From Paracoccaceae bacterium (GTDB lineage: Bacteria; Pseudomonadota; Alphaproteobacteria; Rhodobacterales; Rhodobacteraceae), in the NCBI GenBank assembly GCA_016124615.1, contig WGNF01000003.1:620001-684000 (forward strand): DNA of 64,000 nt, given 5' to 3'. The notes beneath the pieces are model-generated. The model made no database searches and was not told the origin of the DNA. It saw only the letters and a program-made list of their open reading frames with translations. The position numbers were made by a program, and so were the translations under genes. This document shows, piece by piece, positions 1-15,860 of the stretch; the first letter of the stretch is position 1; each line of letters begins with the position of its first letter.

Positions 1-549
1 GGTGTCGGTCACCGCCTCGGTGGTGTAGCCGCGCTGCGCCCGGTCGCGGTGGATTTTCTGGATCCATTCGAGGTTGACCACCGGCACCACGCCGATCTTC
101 AGGTCGGCGTGCTGGGGCAGGTTGACCGCGTCATTCACCACGCAGCCGTGCAGGCCCTCGTAGAACAAGAGGTCCGATCCGTCCTCGAACGGCGCCCAAT
201 CGGTGAACTTGCCCGGCGCCACGCCATAGGCCTCAGCCTCGCGCGCGTCGTGGACATAGTGACGGGTGCGGCCCTTGCCGGTCTCGCTGTATTCGCGGAA
301 CACCCGCTCCAGCTCGCCCAACTCGTTGGCTTCATAGGAGAAATGCGAAAAGGTGTGATCGCCCTCGGCATAGCGCTTTTCCAGCTCGGCCTTCATCGCC
401 GCGCGGTCGAAGCGGTGGAAGGCATCGCCCTCGATCGACACCGCCTTGAAGCCCTCGCGGCGGAAAATCTGGTCGAAGGTGTTCTTGACCGTGGTGGTGC
501 CCGCGCCGGAGGATCCGGTGACCGAGATGATGGGGTGTTTCTTGCTCAT
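1..549 (-). CDS. cbbP: phosphoribulokinase (partial, C-terminus outside window)
   Basis: Phosphorylates ribulose 5-phosphate with ATP to give ribulose 1,5-bisphosphate, the CO2 acceptor of the Calvin cycle (cytoplasm). Translating the minus strand from the ATG at 549 gives MSKKHPIISVTGSSGAGTTT, with the P-loop GSSGAGTTT near residues 12-20, followed by HRFDR and the HTFSHFS segment typical of proteobacterial-type PRK. 183 residues are visible and the frame is open to base 1, so about one third is missing. The ORF track does not list it because no stop is in the window. It starts 4 bp after the cbbF stop, so the two genes form an operon transcribed away from cbbR. Confidence 0.95.
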   Translation of the reverse strand, partial: MSKKHPIISVTGSSGAGTTTVKNTFDQIFRREGFKAVSIEGDAFHRFDRAAMKAELEKRYAEGDHTFSHFSYEANELGELERVFREYSETGKGRTRHYVHDAREAEAYGVAPGKFTDWAPFEDGSDLLFYEGLHGCVVNDAVNLPQHADLKIGVVPVVNLEWIQKIHRDRAQRGYTTEAVTDT

Positions 550-553
550 GCTC

Positions 554-1564
554 TCAACTCCGGAACAGGCCGCGCTTGCCGAACAGGGCGGATGTCTCCT
601 CCTCCGGCAGGTCATGGTAGGCGGCGACGCGGGCGACCTTGTCGGCCGACCCGAAAATCAGGGGGGTGCGAACGTGCAGGCTGGTGACCGTCTGCCCCAT
701 CAGCGGGTCGGCGCCATCGGTGGCCCCGCCACCCGCCTGCACCAGCAGAAAGGCGATCGGCGCGCCCTCGTAAAGCAGCCGCAACCGGCCGTTCTCGTAG
801 CCCTTGCGGTCGTCGCGGGGGTAAAGGAAAATCCCGCCGCGGGTCAGGATGCGGTGCGTTTCGGCCACCAACGAGGCGATCCAGCGCATGTTGAAGTTCT
901 TGCCGCGCGGCCCCTCGGCCCCCGCCACCAGATCGTCGACGTAAGACCGGATCGGCTGCGGCCAGTGCCGGTAGTTCGAGGCGTTGATCGCGAATTCCGA
1001 CGACTTGGCCGGAACCTGCACATTTGTCTGCACCAGCCGGAACTGCCGGGTATCGGAGTCGAGCACGTATTTCAGCACGCCCGCGCCGAAGGTGACGACA
1101 AGGCAGCACTGCGGCCCGTAGATGATGTAGCCGCCCGCGATCTGTTCCGATGCCGGGCGCAGAAAGCTGGCCTCGGCCGTCTCGGCGGCGGGAAAGATCG
1201 AGAAGATGGTGCCGATGGACACGTTCACGTCGATGTTTGACGAGCCGTCCAGCGGGTCGATTGCCAGCGCCAGATCGCCAGTCGGGCCCAGCGTGACCAC
1301 GTCATCCTGCTCTTCCGAGGCGTAGAAGCGCACCGCGGTGCCGGTCAGCGCGTCGCGAAAGGCGTCATCGGCGATCACGTCGAGCGCCTTCTGCCCGTCG
1401 CCGCCCGCGTTGACGCCGACCGCACCGGCCAGATCGGCGTCGTCAAGCCCGCCGCGTGCAATGCGCCGGGCAAGGTCCGCGCCAACCGCGGCGAGGCGGT
1501 TCATCACCTGCTGCAGCTGCGCCGGAACTTCGGTCCCGGCAAAGGCGGGTTGGTCTAGCGGCAT
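554..1564 (-). CDS. cbbF: class I fructose-1,6-bisphosphatase
   Basis: Hydrolyses fructose 1,6-bisphosphate (and sedoheptulose 1,7-bisphosphate in the CBB form) to regenerate ribulose phosphates. The 336-aa protein is full length for the family. It carries the metal/substrate signature [11 protein letters not shown] near residue 105, preceded by ASEEQDD, and later [17 protein letters not shown] and [11 protein letters not shown]. It is the first gene of the cbbFP operon, reads divergently from cbbR, and lies 4 bp before cbbP. That pairing marks it as the autotrophic isoenzyme rather than a gluconeogenic glpX type. Confidence 0.95.
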
Positions 1565-1615
1565 CGCACTCCTCCCAAAGCATCGATTCTGTCTTCAGCA
1601 TTGCGGAAGGGGCGA

Positions 1616-1633
1616 TTAGATGACATTTAATAA
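1616..1633. promoter_or_regulatory. candidate CbbR operator
   Basis: The 96-bp gap between cbbF and cbbR holds two overlapping matches to the CbbR half-site pattern TNA-N7/8-TNA: TTA-N8-TTA (1616-1629) and TGA-N7-TAA (1621-1633). LysR-type CbbR is known to bind such sites in the divergent cbb promoter. The match is short and degenerate, so it rests mainly on position. Confidence 0.5.
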
Positions 1634-1660
1634 ACCAAGCGTCTCCATCAGGATTTTGGA

Positions 1661-2584
1661 ATGAACCTGTCCGATGCCGTCACACTGAAGCAGATGCGCG
1701 CCCTGTCGGCAGTCGCGCGCCACGGCTCGATCACCGCCGCAGCCGAGGCACTGCGCCTGTCGCCACCGGCGATTCACAGCCAGCTCAAGGGGTTGGAGGC
1801 GATTGTTGAGACGCCTGTTTTACAGCGCACCTCGGATACCGCCGGTTCGCAGCTGACCGAGGCCGGGCGCGCGCTGCTGGAGGCGGCCGAGCGGATCGAG
1901 GTCATTCTGTCGCAGTGCGGCGGTCAGGTGGACGCTTTGTCGCGGGGGCAGGCGGGCAAGGTCGTGCTGGGCGTGGTTTCGACCGGAAAGTATTTCGCGC
2001 CGAAACTCGTCAAGCGTCTCAAGACGTTATGCCCCGAGATTGATATCGTGCTGCGGGTCGGGAACCGCGACGACGTGATCCGCGATCTGGAACGCCACGC
2101 CGCCGATCTGACCGTGATGGGCCGGCCGCCGCGCTGGCCGCCGCTGGAAACCGAGCCGCTCGGGCCGCATCCGCACGGCCTTGTTGCGGCGCCGGATCAT
2201 CCGCTGGCGGGCAAGCATGGCGTGACGGCCGCCGATCTGGCCAGCCAGACCTTTCTGGCGCGCGAAGACGGCTCTGGCACGCGCATCCTGATGACGCGCT
2301 ACCTTGACCGCATCGGCGACGGGCAGGTGTTCGAGACGGTCGAGATGGGCTCGAACGAGACCATCAAGCAGGCGGTGATCGCGGGCCTCGGCATCGCGCT
2401 GTTGTCGTTGCACACGGTGATGGACGAATTGCACGCTGGGCGGCTGGTGCTGATCGACGCGCCGGGGCTGCCGATCGTGCGGCACTGGTTTCTGGTCTGG
2501 CCCGCCGACAAACCGATGCGGCCTGTCACCGACCGCGTGCGCGGCGCGATCCTGGAACTGAACGGGGGTTTCCTGCCAGAGTGA
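1661..2584 (+). CDS. cbbR: CbbR, LysR-family regulator of the Calvin cycle operon
   Basis: A transcriptional activator of divergent cbb genes that senses metabolites such as RuBP. The 307-aa protein has an N-terminal winged helix-turn-helix (residues about 10-65, with VARHGSITAAAEALRLSPPAIHSQLKGLE) and a LysR substrate-binding domain (about 90-300). It is divergent from cbbFP across 96 bp, the classical cbbR arrangement. Its 3' side is followed by an AT-richer 67-bp stretch and then the IS30 left end, so whatever originally lay downstream has been displaced. Confidence 0.9.
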   Translation: MNLSDAVTLKQMRALSAVARHGSITAAAEALRLSPPAIHSQLKGLEAIVETPVLQRTSDTAGSQLTEAGRALLEAAERIEVILSQCGGQVDALSRGQAGKVVLGVVSTGKYFAPKLVKRLKTLCPEIDIVLRVGNRDDVIRDLERHAADLTVMGRPPRWPPLETEPLGPHPHGLVAAPDHPLAGKHGVTAADLASQTFLAREDGSGTRILMTRYLDRIGDGQVFETVEMGSNETIKQAVIAGLGIALLSLHTVMDELHAGRLVLIDAPGLPIVRHWFLVWPADKPMRPVTDRVRGAILELNGGFLPE

Positions 2585-2651
2585 TCTGCAATGCTCTGGT
2601 GGTGCTTTATATTACATAATACTGATTATAGGAATCAGATCTGTAAGCGGG

Positions 2652-3766
2652 GTGGATTCAAGATTGAAGTGCGACTTTTGAGCAAAAACAATGTCTTGCC
2701 CAAGGGAGGATTCGCATGCCCCGCTCCTATCTCCACCTCAGCCTTGAAGACCGTCGCAAGATCGCCCGCTGGCATGACGCCAGGATGCCCGTGCTGGAGA
2801 TCGCCCAGCGGCTCGGTCGCCACCGTGCGACGATCCATCGCGAGCTGAAGCGCAACCGCTTCGTCGATGCCGAACTTCAGCACCTCTCTGGCTATTATGC
2901 TGTAAACGCGCAGTCATTGGCTGAGTCCCGTCGTGCCGGTCTGCGCAAGCTGATCCGTCACCGAGACTTGCACGATGTGGTTGTTGATCGGCTCAAGACA
3001 GGCTGGACGCCCGAGCAGATCGCCGGTCGTTTGCGCCTGGATGACAGTGCGCTTTGTGTCAGCCACGAGACGATCTACCAGTTCGCCTATTCGAGGGATG
3101 GCCATGCCATCGACCTGTGGCGGCATCTGCCTGAGCATCACCGCCGCAGGCGTGGTCGTGGCAAGAGGCGTGCGCAAGCCCATAGATTCGCTGAGGAACT
3201 GGCGATTTCTAACCGTCCTGAGATCGTGGGCACCCGCGAGGAGTTCGGCCATTGGGAGGGAGATCTGATCCAGTTCCGCAAGGAATTGGGCCCGGCCAAT
3301 GTAACCTCGCTGGTCGAGCGGGTCAGCCGCTTCACCCTCCTCCTCAAGAACCCGGATCGGCGGTCAAAGCCCGTGATGGAGGAGATCATCGCCGGACTGT
3401 CCCCCCTCCCATTCCACGCCCGCCGCTCGATCACCTTCGACCGTGGTTTCGAGTTCCTCGCTTGGCCTCACTTGCAGGCCGGCCTCGGTGTCGCGACCTG
3501 GTTCTGCGACCCGCAGGCGCCCTGGCAAAAGGGCACCAACGAGAACACCAACGGTCGTGCCCGCCGCTATCTACCCCGCGAGACGGATCCGACGGCGCTG
3601 ACAAATCGCTCCTTGGCGGCGATTTGCCAGCGCCTCAACGCCACGCCCCGAAAGTGCCTCGGGTACCGAACCCCCGCCGAAGTCTTCCGCGAAAAGGTCT
3701 TGGCCGAGGCAGGCGCCCTGCCCTAAGCTCTGTGCCGGTCAAATGCGCACTTCGGCCTGAATCCAC
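2652..3766 (+). mobile_element. IS30-family insertion sequence
   Basis: A complete element of about 1115 bp bounded by imperfect inverted repeats. The left end begins GTGGATTCAAGATTGAAGTG. The reverse complement of the right end reads GTGGATTCAGGCCGAAGTG. The repeats enclose one intact transposase gene. No matching 2-3 bp target duplication is evident (left flank ggg, right flank aat), which suggests that one flank was altered by a deletion after insertion. Confidence 0.85.
2716..3726 (+). CDS. IS30-family transposase
   Basis: A DDE transposase of 336 aa. An N-terminal helix-turn-helix (LSLEDRRKIARWHDARMPVLEIAQRLGRHRATIHRELKRN) binds the IS ends. The integrase core has the acidic residues in HWEGDLI, TFDRGFEF and WQKGTNENTNGRARRYLP, the last being the typical IS30 E region. 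The frame is intact, so the element may still be active. The ATG at 2716 follows an AAGGGAGGA ribosome-binding site. Confidence 0.95.
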   Translation: MPRSYLHLSLEDRRKIARWHDARMPVLEIAQRLGRHRATIHRELKRNRFVDAELQHLSGYYAVNAQSLAESRRAGLRKLIRHRDLHDVVVDRLKTGWTPEQIAGRLRLDDSALCVSHETIYQFAYSRDGHAIDLWRHLPEHHRRRRGRGKRRAQAHRFAEELAISNRPEIVGTREEFGHWEGDLIQFRKELGPANVTSLVERVSRFTLLLKNPDRRSKPVMEEIIAGLSPLPFHARRSITFDRGFEFLAWPHLQAGLGVATWFCDPQAPWQKGTNENTNGRARRYLPRETDPTALTNRSLAAICQRLNATPRKCLGYRTPAEVFREKVLAEAGALP

Positions 3767-3768
3767 AA

Positions 3769-5046
3769 TGTCTGAGTGACCGGCAGGTTCAGCGCCTGCT
3801 CAAGACCTTTCGCGACGATGGCGCCGTCGCCCTGCGGCACAAGGCGCGTGGCCGGCCCTCGAACAACCGCCGCCTCGCAGGCTTGCGCGATCTGACCCTG
3901 GCCCTTGTGCGGGAACGCTATGCCGACTTTGGCCCGACGCTCGCGGCCGAGAAGCTGGCCGAACGCGACGGCGTGAAGGTCTCGCGCGAGACCCTGCGCA
4001 AATGGATGGTCGAGGATGGGCTCTGGCTCTCGCGCAGTCAGCGGCGCGTGTTCCATCGACCGCGGCTGCGCCGGGAATGTTATGGCGAGTTGATCCAGAT
4101 CGACGGCTCGGATCATCGCTGGTTCGAAGATCGCGATGCGCCCTGCACGCTGATCGTGGCGGTGGATGACGCGACGGGCGCGATCCAGGAGATGCGCTTC
4201 GTGCCGTCCGAAAGCACCTTTGCCTATTTCGAGATGCTGGCGGGCTATCTGCGCAGCCATGGCAAGCCCGTTTCCTTCTACTCCGACAAGCATTCCGTGT
4301 TCCGGGTGGCCAAGGCGGACGCCAAATCCGGCCACCAGACGACGCAGTTCGGGCGCGCGCTGTTGGAGCTAAACATCGAGATTCTCTGTGCAAATTCCAG
4401 CCAGGCCAAAGGTCGCGTCGAACGCAAGAACCGCACCCTGCAGGATCGTCTGGTCAAAGAGATGCGGCTGGACAATGTGACCGGCATGAAGGCTGGGAAC
4501 GCCTGGCTGCCGGGCTACATCCAGCGCCACAACCAGCAGTTTGCCCGCACCCCTGCCCGCCCTGACAACCTGCATCGCGCCGTGACCGAAAGCCCGGACC
4601 GCCTGCATGACATTCTGTGCTGGCGCGATGAGCGCTACGTCGGCCAGCAGCTGACGTTTTCTTACGAGCGCAAGCGCATCATGCTGGAAGAGACCGAGGT
4701 TTCGCGCGGCCTCGTTGGTAAATATGTGGACACCTATGCCTGGCCCGACGGGCGGTTCGAGGTGCGCTGGAAGGCGCTTTCGCTGCCCTACCGGGCCTTC
4801 GACCCTGACCAGCAACGCATCACCCATGCGGCGATCACCGAGAACAAACATCTCTCGGCGGCCTTGGCCTACGCCAAGAAGATCCAGAACACCCGCCTGG
4901 CCGCAGACGCGGTCAAGATCGGCAAGCAGCGGACGAAATACACGCCCACTGGCCGTAAGCCTCCGGGGCCCAAGGGAAGGATCGAAAAGGCCGCCGACCG
5001 GCGCCGCGCAGAAGCCGCAGGTCGAACCCAGCATGCCGCAGAATGA
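3769..5046 (+). pseudogene. 5'-truncated IS1202/ISNCY-like transposase
   Basis: The track starts this ORF at 3883. The same frame is open up to the IS30 right end and still reads like the family (LSDRQVQRLLKTFRDDGA...HKARGRPSN). The real N-terminus, including the first part of its helix-turn-helix, is therefore missing, cut away at the IS30 junction. The remaining 387+ residues hold the core: IQIDGSDHRWFEDR, FYSDKHSVF and SQAKGRVERKNRTLQDRLVKEM, typical of ISNCY/IS1202-group transposases. No 5' portion can be recognised on the left of IS30, so insertion was accompanied or followed by a deletion. Confidence 0.8.
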
Positions 5047-5121
5047 CCCTGACCGCAGGACCGGTCAGGCCTGCGATATTGGGGGTCTCCGCCCTGCCCG
5101 GTCCTGCTCCGGCATCTCAGG

Positions 5122-5167
5122 CGACACTTCCACTTTGCAGGACAGACGACGTTCCAACTTGTTGACA
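5122..5167 (+). repeat. tandem imperfect repeat at the right end of the IS1202-like element
   Basis: Two adjacent related copies are seen: CGACACTTCCACTTTGCAGGACA (5122-5144) and CGACGTTCCAACTTGTTGACA (5147-5167). Their position 75-120 bp after the transposase stop suggests they form the transposase-binding right terminus. That would put the IS boundary near 5167, only 23 bp from the soxB stop. The boundary is an inference. Confidence 0.4.
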
Positions 5168-5190
5168 ACAAGATACCACCTGCGGCCCCC

Positions 5191-6882
5191 TCAGGTGCCG
5201 GTGACCACCACCGAGGTGTTCGGGTCGATCGTCACGCTGCCCTTGCGCTTCACCCAGCCTTCGACCAGATCCCAGATCGCAGGCCCCTCTGTGCCTTCGT
5301 TGACGCTGGCCCAGCCGGCCACGACATAAGTCTTCGCCGGGTCGATCGCTTCGCCGGTTTTCAGCAGCATCATGTTGGTCAGCCGTGCGCCCTGCGGTTT
5401 GGAAATGTCGATGTGGTAGCCCATGCCGCCGACCCGCACCATGTCGCCGCCCTGCTGGTAATACGGATCGGGGTTGAACAGGTTGTCGGCCACGTCCTCG
5501 AGGATCGCCTTCAGCGCGGCGCCGGTCATCTCGCTGCGGTAGGCATTCGGATAGCTCATCGCGGTCGCGTTGAACAAATCCTCGCGGGTAATCGGTTGAT
5601 CGGGCAGCACGCTCGGCCCCCAGCGGAAGCCCGGCGACAGCGCGATATCGGCCTCTCGGTCCTCGATCAGCGCGGTGCAGATCAGGTCGTCCCAGGTGCC
5701 GTTGAAGTTGCCGCGCCGGTACAGAAGGCTGCCGGTGTGGCCGATCACCTCCTTGAGGTCGGCCTCAAAGGGCGCGCGCTGGGTCGCGATCAGGCCCGAA
5801 ACCTCGGCGTCGGGCGTGATGACATCGGCGAAGATCGGGATCAGACGGTGACGGAAGCCCTTGATTTCCTTTCCTTGTACGTCCAGATCAAGCCGCGTGA
5901 CGAACTTCCCGTTCGAGCCCGAGGCGATCAGCATCGTCTTGCCCACCTGGATCGGCTCGGGCAGCGCGTCATGGGTGTGGCCGGTCAGGATCACGTCGAT
6001 GCCGGGCACCTGCGCCGCCATCTTGCGATCGACGTCAAAGCCGTTGTGCGACAGCAGCACGACCAGATCGGCACCCTTGCCCTTCACCTCGGCCACCATC
6101 GCGGCCATGCGGTCCTCGCGCACGCCAAAGCTCAGCTTGGGGAACATCCACTTCGGGTTGGCGATCGGCAGATAGGGGAAGGCCTGCCCGATCACCGCGA
6201 TCTTGACCCCGCCACGCTCGAAGATCTTGTAGGGGTCGTAGGCCGGTTCGTCCCATTCGTTGTCGTAGATGTTGGCGCCGAGGAACGGGAACGGCAGCGC
6301 CTTGACGATCTCGGTCACGCGGTCGATGCCCAGGGTGAATTCCCAATGCGAGGTCATCGCGTCGGGCTTCAGCGCGTTCATCACGTTCACCATGTCCTGC
6401 CCGGCGGTCTTCAGCACGGTGTAAGACCCGTGCCAGGTATCGCCGCCGTCCAGCAGCAGCGCCTCGGGCCGCGCGGCGCGGATCGCCTTGATGACAGTCG
6501 CCATCCGGTCGATGCCGCCCATCTTGCCGTAGGTCCTGGCCAGCGCGGTGAAATCCTCATAGGTCAGCGCATAGGCCTCGGGCGAGCCCGGCTTCAGGTT
6601 GAACAGCTTCAGGAAATCGGCGCCGGTGACATGCGGCGGCAGGCCCGCATCGGCGCCGACGCCGATGTTGATTTCGGGCTCGCGGAACCAGGTCGGCACC
6701 AGCTGGCCGTGGATGTCGGTGATGTGGATCAGCGTGACGTTGCCGTAGCTGTCGAAGTCCAGCAGCGTGTTCTGTGTCAGCGCCTGTTGCGCCGCCAGCC
6801 GGGCCCAGTTGCCGATGCCGGAGGCCCCCCAGATTGCCGAGGTCGCCACTGTCGCCTGCAGGAAATCACGCCGCGAGATCAT
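5191..6882 (-). CDS. soxB: SoxB, sulfate thiol esterase of the Sox system
   Basis: A periplasmic dimanganese hydrolase that releases sulfate from the cysteine-bound thiosulfonate on SoxY. The 563-aa protein starts with a Tat signal (MISRRDFLQATVATSAIW). Metallophosphatase motifs follow: HITDIHGQ (residues 53-60), DGGDTWHGS (about 155), LSHNGFDVD and TGHTHDALP. A 5'-nucleotidase C-terminal domain ends the protein. It is last in the minus-strand soxXYZAB order, 103 bp after soxA. soxCD, which follows soxB in Paracoccus-type clusters, is replaced here by an IS scar. Confidence 0.97.
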   Translation of the reverse strand: MISRRDFLQATVATSAIWGASGIGNWARLAAQQALTQNTLLDFDSYGNVTLIHITDIHGQLVPTWFREPEINIGVGADAGLPPHVTGADFLKLFNLKPGSPEAYALTYEDFTALARTYGKMGGIDRMATVIKAIRAARPEALLLDGGDTWHGSYTVLKTAGQDMVNVMNALKPDAMTSHWEFTLGIDRVTEIVKALPFPFLGANIYDNEWDEPAYDPYKIFERGGVKIAVIGQAFPYLPIANPKWMFPKLSFGVREDRMAAMVAEVKGKGADLVVLLSHNGFDVDRKMAAQVPGIDVILTGHTHDALPEPIQVGKTMLIASGSNGKFVTRLDLDVQGKEIKGFRHRLIPIFADVITPDAEVSGLIATQRAPFEADLKEVIGHTGSLLYRRGNFNGTWDDLICTALIEDREADIALSPGFRWGPSVLPDQPITREDLFNATAMSYPNAYRSEMTGAALKAILEDVADNLFNPDPYYQQGGDMVRVGGMGYHIDISKPQGARLTNMMLLKTGEAIDPAKTYVVAGWASVNEGTEGPAIWDLVEGWVKRKGSVTIDPNTSVVVTGT

Positions 6883-6985
6883 CCGAAATCCTCCAAGACC
6901 CGCGAGGCGGTCGCCCGGCGGACAGCCACGTTGTCATGGGAAACGGGCAGGCGCGCCGGTGGCGGCACCCCTGCCCCAGATCGGC

Positions 6986-7852
6986 CTACGGCCGGACCGA
7001 GACGCCTTCGATCGACAGCCCGTTGCCGCGCGAGGCGACGTAAAGCTCCAGCTCGCGCAGCGGGTCGGTGCCTTCCTTGTAGCTTTCGGCACGGGTATCG
7101 CGCACGCAGCCGTAAAAGCGGTTGTGGATCGAGACCATGTTGGTGGTCTTCAGCCGGTAGACCGGGAAGCCGTTGATCTGGCCTTGCGACAGCCGCTCGT
7201 CGCGAACATGGTCGCCGAAGTGCATCTCGTGGCAACTGGCGCAGGACAGTTCCAGCAGGCCGGTGCGGGTGTAGTACAACTTCTCACCCTCTTTCCAGAA
7301 GGGCGCCGCGGCACCGTCGGTGGCCACATCCACCGGCATCCCGCGCGACTGCATCGAGATGGCCGAGGTCAGGCCGGACATTTCGTTGCTGTTCCAGCCA
7401 AGCGCCTTGGCGCCCATGCGGTTGGTCACGCAATCGTTGATGTAGTCTTCCAGCGACCAGAGCTTGCCGGCCTTGTTGACCTTGGGCATCGAGGCGCGCA
7501 CGCCCTTCATGCTGTCGATCCCGTTGTGGCACGAGGCGCAGGATTTGCCCTCGGTTCCCATCACGGTGGACCAGGCGGCGTTGCCCGCATCGACCGCCAG
7601 CATCGCCGGGTTGGAAAAGTCGTCGGTCTCCATCGCCTGCGTCGTCGGGTCGTGGAACAGCCAGCCGGAATACACTTCCTTGAGGCCCGGAATATTGGCC
7701 GGGGCCGGAACGCGGGTGACCAGTTTGGTATCGCCGTTGATTACCAGATCGACGCCCGGATCGGGGTCGGCGGCGCGCGCCATTCCCCCGACCGACAGGG
7801 CCAGCAGGCCCAGGGCCATCATCGCCGTCGCTTGCTTGCGCAATTTCATCAT
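6986..7852 (-). CDS. soxA: SoxA, diheme c-type cytochrome subunit of SoxAX
   Basis: With SoxX it couples thiosulfate oxidatively to the SoxY cysteine in the periplasm. The 288-aa protein has a Sec signal (cleavage after GGMARA), two heme motifs CASCHN (C105-C108-H109) and CASCHE (C204-C207-H208), and C249 in HNRFYGCVRD, matching the cysteine that serves as axial ligand and active-site persulfide. Both hemes are retained, as in the diheme subclass. It is preceded by a GGAGGAGAG ribosome-binding site and lies 34 bp after soxZ. Confidence 0.97.
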   Translation of the reverse strand: MMKLRKQATAMMALGLLALSVGGMARAADPDPGVDLVINGDTKLVTRVPAPANIPGLKEVYSGWLFHDPTTQAMETDDFSNPAMLAVDAGNAAWSTVMGTEGKSCASCHNGIDSMKGVRASMPKVNKAGKLWSLEDYINDCVTNRMGAKALGWNSNEMSGLTSAISMQSRGMPVDVATDGAAAPFWKEGEKLYYTRTGLLELSCASCHEMHFGDHVRDERLSQGQINGFPVYRLKTTNMVSIHNRFYGCVRDTRAESYKEGTDPLRELELYVASRGNGLSIEGVSVRP

Positions 7853-7886
7853 CTCTCCTCCCTGACGAGCGTGAAACGCGAGGCGC

Positions 7887-8216
7887 TTAGCCGAGCGCTA
7901 TGGTTTTTGAGTCCGAGTAGACGGAGCCGTCGTCATCGTACCAGGTGAACTTGAAATCCCCCGCCGCGTCGATCTTGGCGTCGAATTCGATGTAGGGGTT
8001 GGTCGAGATCGCGGGGTCGAGCGTCATGTCGATCACGTTCTTGCCGTTGAAGTCGCAGGTGAAGCGGTTGATGATCTCGCGCGGGATCGGCTTGCCGTCC
8101 TTGTCCTTGGTCTGACCGGAAATCATCGGGTGACTGATCAGCGTCTTGATGGTGATCACGTCGCCGACTTTCGCGGTCGCCGGAACCTTTACCCGCGGGG
8201 TGACATTGCTAGCCAT
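7887..8216 (-). CDS. soxZ: SoxZ, sulfur carrier complex subunit
   Basis: A partner of SoxY. The SoxYZ heterodimer carries the sulfur substrate through the Sox cycle. The 109-aa, signal-less immunoglobulin-fold protein has typical family segments (GDVITIKTLISHPM, INRFTCDFNG, FTWYDDDGSVYSD). The lack of a signal is normal, because SoxZ is exported piggyback with the Tat-exported SoxY. It lies 54 bp downstream of soxY. Confidence 0.96.
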   Translation of the reverse strand: MASNVTPRVKVPATAKVGDVITIKTLISHPMISGQTKDKDGKPIPREIINRFTCDFNGKNVIDMTLDPAISTNPYIEFDAKIDAAGDFKFTWYDDDGSVYSDSKTIALG

Positions 8217-8270
8217 GTGGTCGCTCTCCTAAGCTGGTGGTGGCTGCGTTGCGTGTCGGTCGCTGGCCGC

Positions 8271-8690
8271 TCAGCCGCCGCAGCCGCCGATGGTCACCTT
8301 CACCGTCGAGGTGACCTTGACGAATTTTCCGTCGCTCATCTTGGCGATTGCGATCACGTCCTGGGTCTTGGCCAGTCGCATCCGCGTGCCCGCCTTCTGC
8401 GACCCGGCCGCCGGGCCGAAATTGAAGGTCGCGACCTCGGGCGTCGGGTTGCCGGGCGCCAGGATCATGATCGCCACCGCGCCGGGGGCATCGACGCTGA
8501 CCGGCACCGTGTTGCCGTTCTCGGCGATCTCGGGCAGCGTCAGCGTCAGCCCGCCGGTGCCCAAAGCCGCGCCGCCGGTGAAGGTCGCGATCGCGGCATC
8601 CTCGGCTGCCGCATAGGCCGCCGGGGCCAGGACGGCCAGCGCCATGCCGCCAATCCCGACCGCAAGCGCGTCTCGTCTGGAAAGTTTCAT
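8271..8690 (-). CDS. soxY: SoxY, sulfur-carrying subunit
   Basis: Binds sulfur intermediates covalently on its C-terminal cysteine. The protein ends in VKVTIGGCGG, the swinging-arm GGCGG motif. A Tat signal begins MKLSRRDALAVGIGG and ends near AAYA. The start was placed at the second Met of the track ORF (8690, not 8702) because GGAG lies 6 nt upstream of it. That gives 139 aa, the usual SoxY length. Order soxX-soxY-soxZ as in other Rhodobacterales. Confidence 0.96.
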   Translation of the reverse strand: MKLSRRDALAVGIGGMALAVLAPAAYAAAEDAAIATFTGGAALGTGGLTLTLPEIAENGNTVPVSVDAPGAVAIMILAPGNPTPEVATFNFGPAAGSQKAGTRMRLAKTQDVIAIAKMSDGKFVKVTSTVKVTIGGCGG

Positions 8691-8730
8691 CCTGATCTCC
8701 ATGTCGGTAAGCCCTGCTAGCCGCGGGCCG

Positions 8731-9204
8731 TCATTTGAACGTCATAAGGAAGGCAACGACATCCTCGACCTGCTGGGCCGTCAGGATGGGCTGGATCGGG
8801 CCGGTGGGCGCCTTGGCGGTATAGCCATCGCCCGGCCGGATGAAGCCCGAGGTCTTGTAGAACGAGGGCATCAGGGTGTCCGGGAAGGTCATCTTGGCAT
8901 TCGCCACGATGCCGCGCAGCTGCGCCTCGGTGTATTTCGAGCCGACACCGTCCAGCGCGGGGCCGATGTCGCCGGGATCGGCGAACTTGGCCCAGCCTGC
9001 GGCCACATGGCAGGCGATGCAATTGCCCATCGGGCGGGTCGTCGCCACCTTCAGGCCGTCGGCCGGATCACCCGCCACGCCGGTCAGGGATTGCGCGACC
9101 GCGCCATTGTCGAATTTCACGGCGTCCGGCACCGTGTCGGCGGTCGCGACGGCTGCGCAAAGCGGAAGCGCAACAAGCGCGCCCAGCACGATCAGTCGTT
9201 TCAT
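8731..9204 (-). CDS. soxX: SoxX, monoheme c-type cytochrome subunit of SoxAX
   Basis: Accepts electrons from SoxA during attachment of thiosulfate to SoxYZ and passes them to c-type cytochromes. The 157-aa protein has a Sec signal (MKRLIVLGALVALPLCAAVATA) and one heme motif CIACH (C62-C65-H66). The Met in TLMPSFYKTSG is a likely distal ligand. It is the first gene of the soxXYZAB unit, and its promoter must lie in the 156-bp gap to soxW. Confidence 0.96.
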   Translation of the reverse strand: MKRLIVLGALVALPLCAAVATADTVPDAVKFDNGAVAQSLTGVAGDPADGLKVATTRPMGNCIACHVAAGWAKFADPGDIGPALDGVGSKYTEAQLRGIVANAKMTFPDTLMPSFYKTSGFIRPGDGYTAKAPTGPIQPILTAQQVEDVVAFLMTFK

Positions 9205-9285
9205 TGGAGTCCTCCCTGACTTCCTCCGAGATGGAGGCGCCCTCCCCGACGATCCTCCGACTCAAACCGTAACGGCAAGGTGATC

Positions 9286-9309
9286 TTTCGCGCAACGAAA
9301 AATTCCAGA
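9286..9309. promoter_or_regulatory. candidate sox regulator site in the soxW-soxX gap
   Basis: TTTCG-CGCAA-CGAAA is a perfect 5-bp inverted repeat (9286-9300), followed by the hexamer TCCAGA (9304-9309), which recurs in the soxV-soxS gap at 10722-10727. Known SoxR (ArsR family) regulators act at both the wx and sv intergenic regions. Assignment of this exact site is inference. Confidence 0.35.
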
Positions 9310-9333
9310 TTCGCCATGTCTTATTTTGCGACG

Positions 9334-9354
9334 CCGGGGGCGAAGCCTCCCCGG
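9334..9354 (-). terminator. possible hairpin terminator after soxW
   Basis: On the minus strand CCGGGG...CCCCGG encloses a TTCG-containing loop, starting 7 bases after the soxW stop. There is no clear T-run after it, so it may attenuate rather than terminate transcription into soxX. Confidence 0.3.
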
Positions 9355-9360
9355 CCCCGG

Positions 9361-9930
9361 TCAGTTTTTCACATCCATCGGAAAATGCTCGGCAAAATAA
9401 CGCTGGAAGCCCTGCCCGCTGTCATAGCCGTGGTCGCGCACATAGGTGAACATGGCCAGCGTGGTGTTCTTGCCGAAGGCGCCAGGCATCAGCATCACCG
9501 CCGCCTGCGCCGCCGTCTTGCCCGCCGGCACCTCTTCCGGCAGGAAGATCATCGTCGGCGTGAAGACGATGTTCCAGCGCGCCGCCATGTCTTTTTCCGG
9601 CAGCACCTTGCCGTCGAAATCGGTCACCGGCGTATCGCCGTAGAGGTTGATCTGATCGACGAAATAGGTGTCGCGGATGATCTTGTCGATCGCCGGAACG
9701 GGGAACACCTCTTCATGCATCTTGGCGCAGTAGATGCAGCCGCGCTGTTCCACGATCAGCAACAGCCGCTTGTGCTGCGCGTTGGCCTCGGCCAGATCGT
9801 CGCGCAGGTCCTTGAACGTGTCCTGCAACCAGGTGGGCTTGTGCAGCCCGTCATCTCCGATCGGCACCACCGCATGGGCGGGGCCCGCCAGCGCCACGGC
9901 GGCGGCAATGGCAACAGCAATACGACGCAT
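9361..9930 (-). CDS. soxW: SoxW, periplasmic thioredoxin
   Basis: A thiol-disulfide protein kept reduced by SoxV, thought to keep the SoxY cysteine competent. The 189-aa protein has a Sec signal ending AGPAHA and the redox motif CIYC (C65-C68) in LLLIVEQRGCIYCAKMHEEVF, plus the cis-Pro segment FTPTMIFLPEE. It lies 19 bp after soxV in a soxVW operon. The motif context matches the SoxW/thioredoxin_2 group rather than DsbA. Confidence 0.92.
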   Translation of the reverse strand: MRRIAVAIAAAVALAGPAHAVVPIGDDGLHKPTWLQDTFKDLRDDLAEANAQHKRLLLIVEQRGCIYCAKMHEEVFPVPAIDKIIRDTYFVDQINLYGDTPVTDFDGKVLPEKDMAARWNIVFTPTMIFLPEEVPAGKTAAQAAVMLMPGAFGKNTTLAMFTYVRDHGYDSGQGFQRYFAEHFPMDVKN

Positions 9931-9949
9931 GATGTCCTCCCTCTCAGGC

Positions 9950-10699
9950 TTATTGCAGCGTGCTTTCCCAGTTGAAATGGCGGATCAGGAAATCCGCGAT
10001 GTAGCCGACCGAATGGGTGGCGATCAGCGCGGCGAACAGGATCAGCATAACCCCCATCGCCTTTTCCACCAGTCCCAGATAGCGCCGGTTGCGCCCGACC
10101 CAAGCCAGAAACGGCCGCGCGAAAATGGCCGCGATCACGAAGGGCAGCGTCATCGCCAGCCCGTAGACCAGCAAAAGCCCGCCGCCGCGCACCAGATCGC
10201 CCGAGCCGCTGGCCACGAACAGGATCGCCGCCAGCGCCGGGCCGACGCAGGGCGTCCAGCCAAAGCCGAAGGCCAGCCCCATCACATAGGCGCCGATCAG
10301 CGTGGTCGGGTTCGTCTTCGACTCGATCCGCGCCTCGCGGTACAGGAACGGGATCCGCACCAGCCCGAGGAAATGCAGCCCGAACAGCGCCAGCACCGCC
10401 GCCGCGACCCAGGACAGCTGGTTTTTCCACTGGATGAAGGCCGATCCCAGCGCGGTCGCCCCCAGCCCCAGCAGCACGAAAATCGTCGTCACCCCCAGCG
10501 CGAAGGCCACCGCCGAGATCACCAGCCGCCGGTGCGCGCCCGGCGCAAGCCCGCCGGGGCTGCCGTCGCCGCGCAGATCCTGCATTGAAATTCCGGCCAT
10601 GTAGCACAGGTAAAACGGCACGATGGGCAGGATGCAGGGCGACAGGAACGACAGGATGCCTGCCACCGCCGCGCCGCCAAACGAGATGTCGAAGTTCAT
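9950..10699 (-). CDS. soxV: SoxV, CcdA/DsbD-type membrane thiol transporter
   Basis: Carries reducing power across the inner membrane to SoxW. The 249-aa, roughly six-helix CcdA-family protein has the two redox cysteines in LSPCILPIVPFYLCYMAG (helix 1) and FGFGWTPCVGPALAA (helix 4). The track begins at 10924, but the family start MNFDISFGG is at 10699 and is used here. The gene is divergent from soxS and followed by soxW. Confidence 0.93.
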   Translation of the reverse strand: MNFDISFGGAAVAGILSFLSPCILPIVPFYLCYMAGISMQDLRGDGSPGGLAPGAHRRLVISAVAFALGVTTIFVLLGLGATALGSAFIQWKNQLSWVAAAVLALFGLHFLGLVRIPFLYREARIESKTNPTTLIGAYVMGLAFGFGWTPCVGPALAAILFVASGSGDLVRGGGLLLVYGLAMTLPFVIAAIFARPFLAWVGRNRRYLGLVEKAMGVMLILFAALIATHSVGYIADFLIRHFNWESTLQ

Positions 10700-10721
10700 C
10701 TGCTGTGCGCCTTGCTGAATA

Positions 10722-10744
10722 TCCAGAAACAAATTACGATTTGT
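10722..10744. promoter_or_regulatory. candidate SoxR operator in the soxV-soxS gap
   Basis: ACAAAT-TACG-ATTTGT (10729-10744) is a perfect 6-bp inverted repeat in the middle of the 70-bp divergent gap, preceded by TCCAGA (10722-10727). An ArsR-type SoxR is known to repress at this gap in other sox clusters. The soxR gene itself is not adjacent here. Confidence 0.5.
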
Positions 10745-10769
10745 ATATGCTTTGAGGGAGGCGTCAATC

Positions 10770-11174
10770 ATGCAGGTCGGTCCAGCCGCGCGGCGCCGCG
10801 GCTTTGGCGTCGCCGCGATCCTTGCCACGCTGGTGCTTGCCGCCGCCCCGGCGCAGGCGGCGTTGCAGCTGATCATGTTCGAACAGCCGGGCTGCCCGTG
10901 GTGCGCACGCTGGGATGCCGCCATCGCGCCGATCTACCCCAAGACCACCGAGGGCGCCGAGGCGCCGCTGACCCGGATGGATATTCACGCCGCCCTGCCC
11001 GCCGACATCAAGCTGGCCCGCGCGCCGCAGTTCACCCCGACCTTCGTGCTGTTGCAGGACGGCAGCGAAGTCGGTCGCATCGAGGGCTACCCCGGCGAGG
11101 ATTTCTTCTGGGGCATGCTCGACGGCCTTCTGGCCCGCGCCGTGCCGCCGCTGCCGACCGGGCCCAAGACATGA
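10770..11174 (+). CDS. soxS: SoxS, periplasmic thioredoxin-like protein
   Basis: A periplasmic thiol protein that reactivates SoxYZ in Paracoccus. The 134-aa protein has a signal ending AAAPAQA and the motif CPWC (C42-C45) in MFEQPGCPWCARWDA. The track starts at a TTG (10752). The ATG at 10770 is chosen because GAGGGAGG lies 8 nt upstream. In the standard layout soxR precedes soxS. Here soxS is promoter-proximal and is followed by a DUF302 gene with a 4-bp overlap. Confidence 0.9.
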   Translation: MQVGPAARRRGFGVAAILATLVLAAAPAQAALQLIMFEQPGCPWCARWDAAIAPIYPKTTEGAEAPLTRMDIHAALPADIKLARAPQFTPTFVLLQDGSEVGRIEGYPGEDFFWGMLDGLLARAVPPLPTGPKT

Positions 11175-11617
11175 CGCGGCCCGCGCTTCTGGCCGCGCTG
11201 TTCGCGCTTCTGGCCGCCCCGGCGCTGGCCGACCCGCCGACCGTGGTCACCATCACCGGCACCTTCGACGACGCCACGTTCGAGCTGCAGAACGCCATCA
11301 CCAACGCCGGTCTGGTGATCGATTCGGTCAGCCATACCGGCGACATGCTGGAACGCACCAAAACCGCCGTCGGTGCCACCCGGACGATCTTCACCCATGC
11401 CGATGTCTTCAGCTTCTGCTCGGCCAAGGTCAGCCGCGAGGTGATGGAGGCCGATCCGATGAACGTTCAGTTCTGCCCCTACCACATCTTTGTCGCCGAA
11501 CAGCCAGAGGCGCCGGGGCGCATCCTGATCGGCCATCAGGTCTATACCGGCCCGGCAATGGACAAGGTGAACGCGCTGCTGGACGGCATCATCAAGGATG
11601 CGCTGTCCAGCAACTGA
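11171..11617 (+). CDS. exported DUF302-domain protein
   Basis: A 148-aa protein of unknown biochemical function. A Sec signal (MTRPALLAALFALLAAPALA) is followed by a DUF302 domain: FELQNAITNAGLVIDSVSHTGDMLERT, then FSFCSAKVSREVMEADPMNVQFCPYHIFV. Its start overlaps the soxS stop (ATGA), so it is probably translationally coupled to soxS and made with the Sox proteins. Two cysteines in the FC..FCPY region could make it a thiol or heme/sulfur-binding periplasmic accessory, but that is inference. The annotated start lies well inside the 301-aa track ORF. Confidence 0.85.
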   Translation: MTRPALLAALFALLAAPALADPPTVVTITGTFDDATFELQNAITNAGLVIDSVSHTGDMLERTKTAVGATRTIFTHADVFSFCSAKVSREVMEADPMNVQFCPYHIFVAEQPEAPGRILIGHQVYTGPAMDKVNALLDGIIKDALSSN

Positions 11618-11629
11618 CCGGCTGCGCCG

Positions 11630-12196
11630 TCAGAACTCGCCGGTCGATGCCTTGTCGAGGATGGCCAGCATCGTGGCGCGCACCTTTTCGGCCTCGGGCA
11701 GCAGCTCGGGCGGCAGCGGGCGGCCGCCGTGGATCATCATGTCCATGTCCAGCGTGTAAAGCCACAGCGCCCCGGTCTTGTCCTCGACCAGCGCGACGCG
11801 GCAGGGCAGATAGGCGGAATAGGCTTCCGAGTAATCTACCATCTTCGCCGCTGTCAGCGGGTTGCAGTAAAGGTAGATCTTCAGCTTGCGCCAGGGCTTG
11901 CCCTGCATCGCGGCGATCTGGTCGCCCAGCGGCAGCGACCCCACGTCCTTGATGTTCTCGGCCAGCGCCACCGACTGGATCGACTGATCCACATCGTCGA
12001 AACTGAGCCCGGCGGCCACCTTGCGCTTCCACACCGTCGCATCGGCCGCGTTGCCGGTTGCGGCCAGCCGTTCGGCCATGTGCCAGTACACCATCGGCGC
12101 CTGCGGGTCGAACCCGGAAAAGACCCAGGCGCCGTAGCCCAGACCCAGCACCGCCGCCAGCCCGATCAATGCCAGCACATTACGCAGAAACGTCAT
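11630..12196 (-). CDS. membrane-anchored DUF302-domain protein
   Basis: A 188-aa protein with an N-terminal transmembrane anchor (MTFLRNVLALIGLAAVLGLGYGAWVF) and a C-terminal DUF302 domain (KLKIYLYCNPLTAAKMVDYSEAYSAYLPCRVALVEDKTGALWLYTLDMDMMIHGG). It is convergent with the other DUF302 gene, 12 bp between their stops. Two divergent members of one family touching soxS suggests a paired accessory role in the periplasm. Function unknown. Confidence 0.85.
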   Translation of the reverse strand: MTFLRNVLALIGLAAVLGLGYGAWVFSGFDPQAPMVYWHMAERLAATGNAADATVWKRKVAAGLSFDDVDQSIQSVALAENIKDVGSLPLGDQIAAMQGKPWRKLKIYLYCNPLTAAKMVDYSEAYSAYLPCRVALVEDKTGALWLYTLDMDMMIHGGRPLPPELLPEAEKVRATMLAILDKASTGEF

Positions 12197-12292
12197 CCGC
12201 AGCCTCCCCGCCTCAGGAACGTATCCGTTTTAGAGAATATAACCGACGATCCGGCGCCGCTTGTCAAGCACCGATGCCGCGCCCTGCCCCGG

Positions 12293-13549
12293 TCAGCCGT
12301 AACGCGCCGCGGTCAACCCCTCGAACGAGATCTCGGGCGTCCGGCCCAGCACCAGATCGGCGACCGCGCGGCCAGAGCCGCAGGCCATCGTCCAGCCCAG
12401 CGTGCCATGCCCGGTGTTGAGGTAGAGGTTGGGATATTGCGTCGGCCCCAGCACCGGGGTGCCGTCGGGCGTCATGGGCCTGAGCCCGGTCCAGCCCTCG
12501 GCCCGCTCAAGATCGCCGCCGCCGGGAAAGAGATCGCCGATGACGTGCCGCACCGTGTCGGTGGCATGCGGCCCCAGACGGTTGGAATAGCCCGCGATCT
12601 CGGCCTGACCGGCGACGCGGATCCGGTCGCCCAGCCGGGTGATCGCAACCTTGTGGGTCTCGTCCATGATGGTCGATTGCGGCGCCCGCGCGTCATCGGT
12701 CACCGGCAGCGTGACGGAATAGCCCTTCACCGGGTAGACCGGCAGCCGCAGCCCGACCGGTTTCAGCAGGCGGGGCGCATAGCTTCCCAGCGCGCAGACA
12801 TAGGCATCGCCGGTCACCCGGCCCATCTGGTTGGTATCGACGCCAACGACGCGGCCGTTTTCCACCGCGATCTGCTCGATGGTCTGGGCATAGTGGAACT
12901 GCACCCCCAGCGCGGCGGCCTTGTCGGCCAGCGCCATCGTGAACATGCGGCAATCCCCGGTGCGGTCGGCGGTCAACCGCAGGCCCCCCACGAACTTGTC
13001 GCGCACCCCGGCCAGCGCCGGTTCCACCGCCACGCAGCCGTCGGGGTCAAGTACTTCGAAGGGCGAGTCGAACTCCGCCAGGATTGCCTGATCGGCCTTC
13101 GAGCCCTTCAGCTGCTTTTCGGTCCGGAACAATTGCAGCGTGCCCTGCGCGCGGCCGTCATATTCGATCCCGGTTTCGGCGATCAGGTCGGGCAGCACGT
13201 CGCGGCTGTAGTTCGAGATCCGCACCATCCGCGACTTGTTCAGCGCATAGCTTTTCTCGTTGCAATTCATCAGCATCTGCGCGCCCCAGACCCACATCGT
13301 CGGGCTGATCAGCGGCCAGATGAACAGCGGGCGCCGCTTCATGAACAGCCACTTCACCGCCTTCATCGGGATCCCCGGCGCGGCCCAGGGCGAGGTCATG
13401 CCATAAGACAGCTCGCCCGCGTTGGCATAGCTCGTCTCCAGCCCCGGCCCGGCCTGACGGTCCAGCACGATGACCTCGGCGCCCGCGCGCGCAAGGTAGT
13501 AGGCCGTGGTGACACCGATCACCCCTGCCCCCATCACGACAATCTTCAT
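12293..13549 (-). CDS. dadA: D-amino acid dehydrogenase
   Basis: An FAD enzyme at the inner membrane that oxidatively deaminates D-amino acids (classically D-alanine) to 2-oxo acids, passing electrons to the respiratory chain. The 418-aa protein has the Rossmann motif GAGVIGVTTAYYLARAG at the N-terminus. DadA hallmarks follow: ETSYANAGELSYGMTSPWAAPGIP, GRAQGTLQLFRTEKQ, ADRTGDCRMFT, and WTGLRPMTPDGTPVLG...LNTGHGTLGWTMACGSG near the C-terminus. The start was taken at MKIVVMGAG (13549), discarding about 200 spurious residues of the track ORF. Confidence 0.93.
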   Translation of the reverse strand: MKIVVMGAGVIGVTTAYYLARAGAEVIVLDRQAGPGLETSYANAGELSYGMTSPWAAPGIPMKAVKWLFMKRRPLFIWPLISPTMWVWGAQMLMNCNEKSYALNKSRMVRISNYSRDVLPDLIAETGIEYDGRAQGTLQLFRTEKQLKGSKADQAILAEFDSPFEVLDPDGCVAVEPALAGVRDKFVGGLRLTADRTGDCRMFTMALADKAAALGVQFHYAQTIEQIAVENGRVVGVDTNQMGRVTGDAYVCALGSYAPRLLKPVGLRLPVYPVKGYSVTLPVTDDARAPQSTIMDETHKVAITRLGDRIRVAGQAEIAGYSNRLGPHATDTVRHVIGDLFPGGGDLERAEGWTGLRPMTPDGTPVLGPTQYPNLYLNTGHGTLGWTMACGSGRAVADLVLGRTPEISFEGLTAARYG

Positions 13550-13680
13550 GGCAGCGTTCCCCTGTTGCGCGCGTCGTTCCGTCAACAGGCATGCACCACA
13601 AAAGCCACCCGCGCCAAGGCCCTGCGCGACATCCGCGCCCGATCCGGCCCGCGCCTGCCACTTTGCCGGGCAGCCGGGGA

Positions 13681-13715
13681 GGATCCCGGCGCGGCCTGGG
13701 GCCGGGCCGGGATCC
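13681..13715. repeat. 35-nt near-perfect hairpin in a divergent promoter region
   Basis: GGATCCCGGC (13681-13690) and GCCGGGATCC (13706-13715) are perfect 10-bp arms. An inner GGCC-tgg-GGCC stem gives 14 pairs with a 2x2 internal loop. It lies between two genes that start here (dadA leftward, AGE epimerase rightward), so it is not placed as a terminator. Confidence 0.6.
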
Positions 13716-13790
13716 GGCCTCCGCTGTGGCGGTCGCACATGACGCGCGCGCCCGGCCCTGCTAGAAGCGGGGCAACAGAGGGGGCGCGGG

Positions 13791-15050
13791 ATGAGCGGAC
13801 AGGCACAGTGGATCGGCACCGGCGGCAGCGATCTGGTCACGCGGGCGAGCCATCGCGACTGGCTGATGGCGCAGGCGACCGGGCTGATCGGCTTTTTCCA
13901 GCGCGCCGCGCTGAACCCGGTGGGCGGGTTCTTCGCCCTTGACGACGCCGGGCGCCCGCTGCCCCCCGGCCCCAAGGGCATGGTGCGCGGGCTGCACGAG
14001 ACGACGCGGATGGTGCATTGCTTCGCCATCGCGCATCTCTTGGGCCTGCCGGGCGCCGACCGGATGATCGACCACGGCATGGCCTTCCTGGCCTCGCACC
14101 ACCACGACCGGGCCAACGGCGGCTGGTTCTGGACGGTGAACGATGCGGGGCCGGTGGATGCCACCAAACAGGCCTATGGCCACGCTTTCGTGCTGCTGGC
14201 CGGCGCCTCGGCCAAGGTGGTGGGCCATCCCGGTGCCGATGCGCTGATCGCCGGGGTGACAGAGGTGCTGCGCGCCCGGTTCTGGGATGATGCGGCCGGG
14301 GCAACGACCGAGGAATACGGCCCCGACTGGTCGCCCTTGGGCGATTACCGTGGCCAGAATTCCAACATGCACCTGACCGAGGCGCTGATGGCGGCGTTCG
14401 AGGCGACCCATGACGCGACCTATCTGACGATGGCCGAACGCATCGCCGGGCTGATCATCGACCGCCACGCCCGCGCCGAGGGCTGGCGCGTCGCCGAACA
14501 TTTCCACGCCGACTGGTCGGTGGATCGCGGCTATGAGGGCGACCCGATGTTCCGCCCGGCGGGCACCACCCCCGGCCACGCGCTGGAATGGTCGCGCCTG
14601 CTGACGCAACTGTGGGAACTGGGCCAGCGCCGCCACGGCTGGATGATCGAGGCGGGGCGGGCGCTGTTCCTGCACACCTGCGCCATCGGCTGGGATGCGG
14701 CGCGCGGCGGGTTCTACTACACGCTCGACTGGAACGACCGACCGACGCGCAGCGACCGCTACTGGTGGCCCTGCGCCGAAGGCATCGGTGCCTCCGCCGT
14801 ACTGCGCCAGACCGGCGGCGATGCGCGGTTCGAGGAATGGTATCGCCGGATCTGGGATTTCACCGAACGCCAGCTGATCGACCACGATCACGGCGGCTGG
14901 TTCCCCGAGCTTGACGATGACCTGCGCCCGGTCAGCCGCGTCTTCACCGGCAAGCCCGACCTGTACCACGCGCTGCAGGCCTGCCTGATCCCGCTGCTGC
15001 CCGCCAGCGGCAGCATCACCCGCGGGCTGGCGGCGCAGGTCGCGGGCTGA
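13791..15050 (+). CDS. AGE-family aldose-ketose isomerase / N-acylglucosamine 2-epimerase-like
   Basis: A 419-aa (alpha/alpha)6-barrel protein of the AGE superfamily (mannose isomerase/YihS/AGE type), cytoplasmic. Recognisable segments are RGLHETTRMVHCFAIAHLLG, KQAYGHAFVLLAGAS, NSNMHLTEALMAAFEATHD, TPGHALEWSRLLTQLWELG and WWPCAEGIGAS, with the conserved His residues that catalyse ring opening and proton transfer. The substrate cannot be fixed from sequence: mannose/fructose, sulfoquinovose or N-acyl sugars are possible. GGGGGCGCGGG precedes the ATG. It ends back to back with the ABC operon (adjacent stops). Confidence 0.8.
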   Translation: MSGQAQWIGTGGSDLVTRASHRDWLMAQATGLIGFFQRAALNPVGGFFALDDAGRPLPPGPKGMVRGLHETTRMVHCFAIAHLLGLPGADRMIDHGMAFLASHHHDRANGGWFWTVNDAGPVDATKQAYGHAFVLLAGASAKVVGHPGADALIAGVTEVLRARFWDDAAGATTEEYGPDWSPLGDYRGQNSNMHLTEALMAAFEATHDATYLTMAERIAGLIIDRHARAEGWRVAEHFHADWSVDRGYEGDPMFRPAGTTPGHALEWSRLLTQLWELGQRRHGWMIEAGRALFLHTCAIGWDAARGGFYYTLDWNDRPTRSDRYWWPCAEGIGASAVLRQTGGDARFEEWYRRIWDFTERQLIDHDHGGWFPELDDDLRPVSRVFTGKPDLYHALQACLIPLLPASGSITRGLAAQVAG

Positions 15051-15860
15051 TCAGGCCCAGTTCGCCTGATCCGGGTCGGGCAGCGGGATCGCGTCCAGCA
15101 GCTCGCGCGTGTAGGCCGCTTGCGGGTGGTCGAACACGTCGGCGGTGGCGGCGTTTTCCACGATCTCGCCCTGTTGCAGCACCATGACGCGGGTGCAGAG
15201 GCGGCGGATCACCGACAGGTCGTGGCTGATGAAGGCAAGCGTCAGGCCAAGGTCTTTCACCAGCCGTTCCAGCAGGTTCAGCACCTGCGCCTGACTTGAC
15301 ACATCCAGACCCGAGACGATTTCATCGGCCAGAATGAACTCTGGCGCCATCGCGATGGCGCGGGCAATGCCGATACGCTGGCGCTGGCCGCCCGACAGCT
15401 CGTGCGGGTAGCGGTTGCGGAAGGCGCGCGGCAGGCCGACATGGTCCAGTGCCTCGTCCACCCGCGCCGACACGCGGTCCAGCCCGTGCAGGCGCAACGG
15501 CCCCGCGATGATGCCCGCAACCCGGCGGCGCGGGTTCAGCGAGGACATCGGGTCCTGAAAGATCATCTGCATCCGCCGCCGCATCGGGCGCAAGGCGGCC
15601 TCGTCCAGATGGGTGATGTCGCGCCCGTCAAAGCGGATCGTGCCGCCGGTCGGCTCCAGCAGCCGGATCAGTGTGCGGCCCAGCGTCGATTTCCCCGACC
15701 CCGAGCCGCCGACGATGCCCACCACCGCCCCGCGCGGAATGTCGAAGCTCAGCCCCTTCAATATCTCCAGCCGGGGCGCGCGGCCGATCAGCGGCTTTTG
15801 CGTCATGTCGGCCAGCGACACGCGCAGGTTTTCCACCCGGATCAACGGCTCATCGGGCAT
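15051..15860 (-). CDS. Dpp/Opp-type ABC transporter ATPase (DppF-like)
   Basis: The second ATP-hydrolysing subunit of a peptide/opine/nickel-class importer. Walker A GSGSGKSTLG, ABC signature LSGGQRQRIGIARAIA, Walker B FILADEIVSGLD, and the C-terminal oligopeptide domain tail. The track start (15884) was moved to the ATG at 15860, which has GGAG 7 nt upstream and gives 269 aa with an 11-bp overlap of the preceding gene. Last gene of the leftward operon FAD-SBP-B-C-D-F. Confidence 0.88.
   Translation of the reverse strand: MPDEPLIRVENLRVSLADMTQKPLIGRAPRLEILKGLSFDIPRGAVVGIVGGSGSGKSTLGRTLIRLLEPTGGTIRFDGRDITHLDEAALRPMRRRMQMIFQDPMSSLNPRRRVAGIIAGPLRLHGLDRVSARVDEALDHVGLPRAFRNRYPHELSGGQRQRIGIARAIAMAPEFILADEIVSGLDVSSQAQVLNLLERLVKDLGLTLAFISHDLSVIRRLCTRVMVLQQGEIVENAATADVFDHPQAAYTRELLDAIPLPDPDQANWA

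Follow-up and report, generated by a model that had tools for sequence, protein, structure and literature searches.

A truncated Sox cluster beside an insertion-sequence pair, and a type I sHdr gene set, in a Paracoccaceae bacterium

In Hyphomicrobium denitrificans, SoxT1A, the Sox system and sHdr are each essential for thiosulfate oxidation (PMC10451225, PMC11582611). The genome studied here (G000) shares with it SoxXYZAB without SoxCD, a type I shdrC1B1AHC2B2 set with LbpA, DsrE and TusA, a YeeE-like SoxT and an ArsR-type regulator beside shdr (PMC10451225, PMC11582611). It differs from H. denitrificans in that sox, shdr and soxT are spread over three contigs, in that soxR is not found beside soxS, and in that no genes for lipoate assembly, which belong to the H. 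denitrificans cluster, are seen near shdr. The soxVW-XYZAB order and the divergent soxS are those of the complete Sox systems (soxXYZABCD) of Paracoccus and Rhodovulum, but soxCD is missing throughout the genus clade of G000. Purple and green sulfur bacteria also have a SoxCD-less, truncated Sox; they combine it with reverse Dsr and sulfur globules, whereas G000 has no dsrA above cut-off. Among Rhodobacteraceae, a truncated Sox is less common than a complete one (PMC10451225).

The window is a stretch of 64,000 nucleotides (C23:620001-684000) of the 4.25-Mb G000 assembly, which consists of 23 contigs and is 93.8% complete, a figure that applies to all gene absences reported for it. It was compared to seven genomes of the genus, its own included, four of which carry soxB (G000, G002, G003 and G006, the last with soxB interrupted by a contig end), and to 150 genomes of the family, one per genus. 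We consider it probable that the truncated Sox was inherited from the genus ancestor or earlier, that sulfane sulfur is oxidized by the type I sHdr, and that the insertion-sequence (IS) pair behind soxB and the accompanying rearrangement came later.

The Sox cluster, the IS pair and the junction with cbbR

The genes soxB, soxA, soxZ, soxY and soxX form one cluster, and all score above the curated NCBIfam cut-offs (Table 1). There is one CXXCH motif in SoxX and there are two in SoxA; the N-terminus of SoxB is of the twin-arginine type. The initial annotation had described soxXYZAB together with soxV, soxW and soxS as intact, and the curated profile matches and usual positions of these genes bear this out. 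An Rfam search of positions 1-16000 gave no matches.

Table 1. Features of the sox-cbbR region, in window coordinates
Feature	Position	Strand	Evidence
cbbR, LysR-type regulator of Calvin-cycle genes	1661..2584	+	NF045990 above cut-off; 82% identical to G002 cbbR
Conserved cbbR 3' flank, against G002 cbbR-RND intergenic DNA	2614..2634		20/21 bases identical
IS30-family element	2653..3765	+	NF033563; ends and flanks
ISNCY (IS1202-type) remnant	3766..5170	+	NF033594; alignment to L135/L136
soxB	5191..6882	-	TIGR04486, 827 bits
soxA	6986..7852	-	TIGR04484
soxZ	7887..8216	-	TIGR04490
soxY, C-terminal GGCGG	8271..8702	-	TIGR04488; tail
soxX	8731..9204	-	TIGR04485
soxW, thioredoxin-like	9361..9930	-	PF13098; position kept in relatives
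soxV, CcdA/DsbD-like	9950..10699	-	DsbD-type match; position kept in relatives
soxS, thioredoxin-like	10752..11174	+	weak PF13098; position kept in relatives
Small secreted protein, function not assigned; start approximate	11168..11617	+	kept beside soxS in relatives
DUF302 protein	11630..12196	-	PF03625; kept at same cluster end in relatives

SoxCD had also been reported as missing, and a search of the whole genome for soxC and soxD found neither; since the assembly is 93.8% complete, this absence is not absolute. The SoxC query retrieved nothing at E<=1e-70, and the SoxD query matched only one-haem cytochromes, over the C-terminal haem domain of SoxD. The sole PF00174 protein of G000 is MsrP-like and adjoins an msrQ-like gene, and a SoxC hidden elsewhere in the genome was therefore rejected. 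The PF00174 protein of G006 was rejected as SoxC in family assignment, and one in G001, a genome without soxB, is SorA-like. The Sox system of G000 is truncated: SoxXA, SoxYZ and SoxB are present and SoxCD, the enzyme of the final step, is absent.

As had been noticed in the initial annotation, an IS1202-like element cut by an IS30 lies behind soxB; its distance from the soxB stop, given there as about 23 bp, measures 20 bp. The IS30 has an intact transposase gene (336 aa, 2716-3726) and imperfect terminal inverted repeats at 2653 and 3765, as befits the family. Its flanks read GGGG on the left and CAAT on the right, without target duplication, so its left side looks like a rearrangement junction and not like a plain insertion. 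The IS30 cuts the left side of the second element, which is identified as ISNCY by its transposase. The first 36 codons of that transposase are gone, and so is the left end, which in homologues takes up about 80 bp before the gene; with this end absent, ISNCY lacks the full pair of terminal repeats and a target duplication. The lost end was not found in the G000 stretches examined. Homology to Paracoccus sp. AK26 places the right end at about 5170. The ISNCY copies on AK26 plasmids share with the window copy the transposase family and the right terminal region, but the window copy lacks the left end and the 36 codons and has IS30 in their place. On contig C13 there is an 84-bp IS30 left-end remnant, 99% identical to the window copy (L134:2209-2292), the only other trace of this IS30 found in G000. 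An assembly artefact via a repeated IS was rejected, as the IS30 otherwise occurs only as this remnant.

The cbbR gene of G002 is separated by 162 bp from an RND-efflux operon that it faces. The same operon is conserved in G000 at C23:721455-730328, 98.9 kb from cbbR and with relative orientation unchanged, and the left tip of IS30 lies about 20 bp past the last conserved sequence downstream of cbbR. The IS pair marks a chromosome breakpoint, at the left tip of IS30. Because the RND operon is 98.9 kb away and conservation of the cbbR flank ends near that tip, the adjacency of sox and cbb is probably a derived join at IS30, with a polarity taken from one relative (G002). Of the proposed IS-linked joining of sox and cbb, the junction at the IS pair thus holds, as, probably, does the derived adjacency, while the removal of soxCD does not.

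The opposite polarity, in which sox next to cbb is old, a 98.9-kb block was lost in G002 to bring cbbR and the RND operon together, and the IS merely landed in the gap, is unlikely, if by no means negligible. It draws on the fact that the RND neighbour is known from one relative only; it has against it the end of conserved cbbR-downstream DNA near the IS30 tip, the IS30 without target duplication and the other contexts in which soxB lies in G002, G003 and G006. For the derived join, we infer an order of events in which ISNCY would have inserted just behind soxB and IS30 then into ISNCY; a rearrangement ending at the left tip of IS30 would have cost ISNCY its left end and brought the block up against the cbbR 3' flank.

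The place of the RuBisCO genes is the same in G002 (L132:12971-14521) and on C23 of G000 (L002); judged by eye, there appears to be a form II RuBisCO gene in the former and, in the latter, a set of form I that includes a cbbX-like gene.

The sHdr cluster and the predicted pathway

A search for the HdrB domain led to contig C3 of G000, where the genes stand in the order shdrC1-shdrB1-shdrA-H-shdrC2-shdrB2 (L195:5423-11194). Behind shdrB2 follow a small gene, a 146-aa GcvH-like gene, a DsrE-type carrier gene and tusA, with an ArsR-type regulator gene at the edge. The GcvH-like product is the candidate LbpA, preferred over GcvH from its place in the cluster. The sHdrA protein aligns over its full length with the 6TJR chain at 584 bits; its scores with methanogen HdrA do not exceed 185 bits. 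We take 6TJR, whose PDB name is generic, to be the Hyphomicrobium sHdrA. No lipoate-assembly genes were seen beside shdr in C3:136-163 kb; such genes are not among the criteria stated for the family. Type I sHdr is defined by shdrC1B1AHC2B2 in one syntenic cluster (PMC11582611), and by its gene content and order the G000 set is of this type. No sHdr core gene was found in 1.13 Mb of G002, about one-third of that genome, and a search of plasmids for sHdrA gave no match. In the literature searched, with supplementary tables outside its scope, we found no description of sHdr in Rhodobacteraceae; we make no claim to a first report.

The SoxT-like transporter of G000 is encoded on contig C5, unlinked from sox, as is that of G006; in G002 and G003 such a gene stands behind soxB, in opposite orientations (L102:13214-14278 and L103:5363-6427). 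No dsrA match above cut-off was obtained in the genus, and a reverse Dsr pathway was rejected for this reason. A second pair of HdrB-like and DsrE genes is present in G000 (contig C17, L193) and in G002 (L208:12920-16333); its neighbours in G002 are [NiFe]-hydrogenase genes, which suggests an Isp-type hydrogenase.

By its gene content, G000 is most likely a thiosulfate oxidizer that uses truncated Sox and sHdr in the manner of H. denitrificans. The steps that we infer from gene content and precedent are as follows. SoxXA would couple thiosulfate to SoxY, and SoxB would release one sulfate. The remaining sulfane sulfur would enter the cytoplasm via the SoxT-like importer, be passed on by the DsrE and TusA carriers and be oxidized to sulfite by sHdr-LbpA. 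Sulfur storage would then be transient at most, without lasting globules. Accumulation of sulfur, which had been suggested as a consequence of the missing SoxCD, is accordingly not the best prediction, given that a type I sHdr gene set is available in the genome for the SoxY-bound sulfur; the predicted products are sulfite and sulfate and not stored sulfur.

It is improbable that sHdr serves another substrate, such as organic sulfur compounds, and that the sulfur bound to SoxY is released and stored as extracellular zero-valent sulfur. The location of sox and sHdr on separate contigs would suit such a division of labour, but, dsrA and SoxCD both being absent, no sulfane-oxidizing system other than sHdr was found, and the SoxT-like importer and the DsrE and TusA carriers are at hand.

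The age of the soxCD loss

SoxB is encoded in 94 of the 150 family genomes, and SoxC in 89 of these 94; the five with SoxB and without SoxC are G000, G060, G070, G094 and G117. With four exceptions, soxC lies about 0.5 kb or less behind soxB in these 89 genomes, so that its place in G000 is known, assembled and empty. Within the genus, soxC is absent genome-wide from all four soxB-bearing genomes, and the soxB genes of G002, G003 and G006 are orthologous to that of G000. Directly behind soxB, G002, G003 and G006 have no IS; the genes there are ordinary ones, SoxT-like (YeeE/YedE) in G002 and G003, in its two orientations, and DsrE-like in G006.

A quick SoxB tree with SH-aLRT support placed the window together with G002, G003, G006, L004 and L005 in a 99%-supported clade that contains SoxCD-less rows only; no soxC was found behind soxB within the 10 kb (L004) and 6.3 kb (L005) inspected. 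The SoxB of G060 forms a long branch and was given no weight. On the sequence evidence of this tree, soxCD was lost at or before the base of the SoxCD-less clade. Since the SoxB of the window lies within that clade, soxCD had already been lost when the IS inserted. Over the whole tree the SoxCD-less state requires at least five changes; thus, SoxCD loss recurs.

According to the initial annotation, soxCD could have been lost in an IS-mediated deletion in the G000 lineage that also brought sox and cbb together, and the pathway left behind would be incomplete and might accumulate sulfur. The IS pair does sit exactly at the usual start of soxC, and the missing left end of ISNCY and the IS30 without target duplication mean that sequence to the left of IS30 has been lost or replaced. 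Such a deletion is nevertheless very improbable: three congeners lack soxC with no IS there, the whole SoxB clade is SoxCD-less, and the IS lies behind soxB with 20 bp of soxB's own flank left. IS-free relatives in the same state had been named beforehand as evidence against a deletion, and G002, G003 and G006, none of which keeps soxCD behind soxB, are such relatives. Just as poor is the chance that SoxCD is encoded in a part of the genome missing from the assembly, for which the completeness of 93.8% and the few family genomes with SoxC and soxB on different contigs leave some room, but the usual soxC site is assembled in G000 and yet empty, and the other soxB-bearing congeners (92%, 70% and 99% complete) are likewise without soxC.

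Further SoxCD-less clusters were seen in the family in L066/L189 (Jhaorihella thermophila), L187 and L188. In L066/L189, soxB is followed by genes for a cytochrome c and a flavoprotein that resemble SoxE and SoxF; L187 and L188 each have just one of the SoxE- and SoxF-like genes. No soxC was present in the stretch examined behind soxB in L015, L018, L022 and L042; an AAA-ATPase gene in this position is common to L015 and L018, and an hflKC-like pair to L022 and L042. A Maritimibacter MAG has two soxW-like genes, arranged in tandem, in its cluster without SoxCD (L005:6295-7486). L020 (record WNWL01000005.1, entitled Oceanobacillus sp. HTM 045) and G010, a genome from the family of the window, have identical SoxB proteins, and the L020 record is therefore probably mislabelled or contaminated.

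The tempting causal reading of the IS scar is thus corrected, and in its stead stands a testable physiology, that of truncated Sox with sHdr. This combination stands out in a family in which complete Sox prevails (89 of the 94 SoxB-positive genera have SoxC). Tentatively, and with the odds somewhat against it, the gain of type I sHdr may have made SoxCD dispensable, so that the whole clade exchanged a complete periplasmic oxidation of thiosulfate for one divided between periplasm and cytoplasm. If such a replacement did take place, the family, for which the SoxB tree calls for five or more changes, would be a natural test of what follows the loss of SoxCD.
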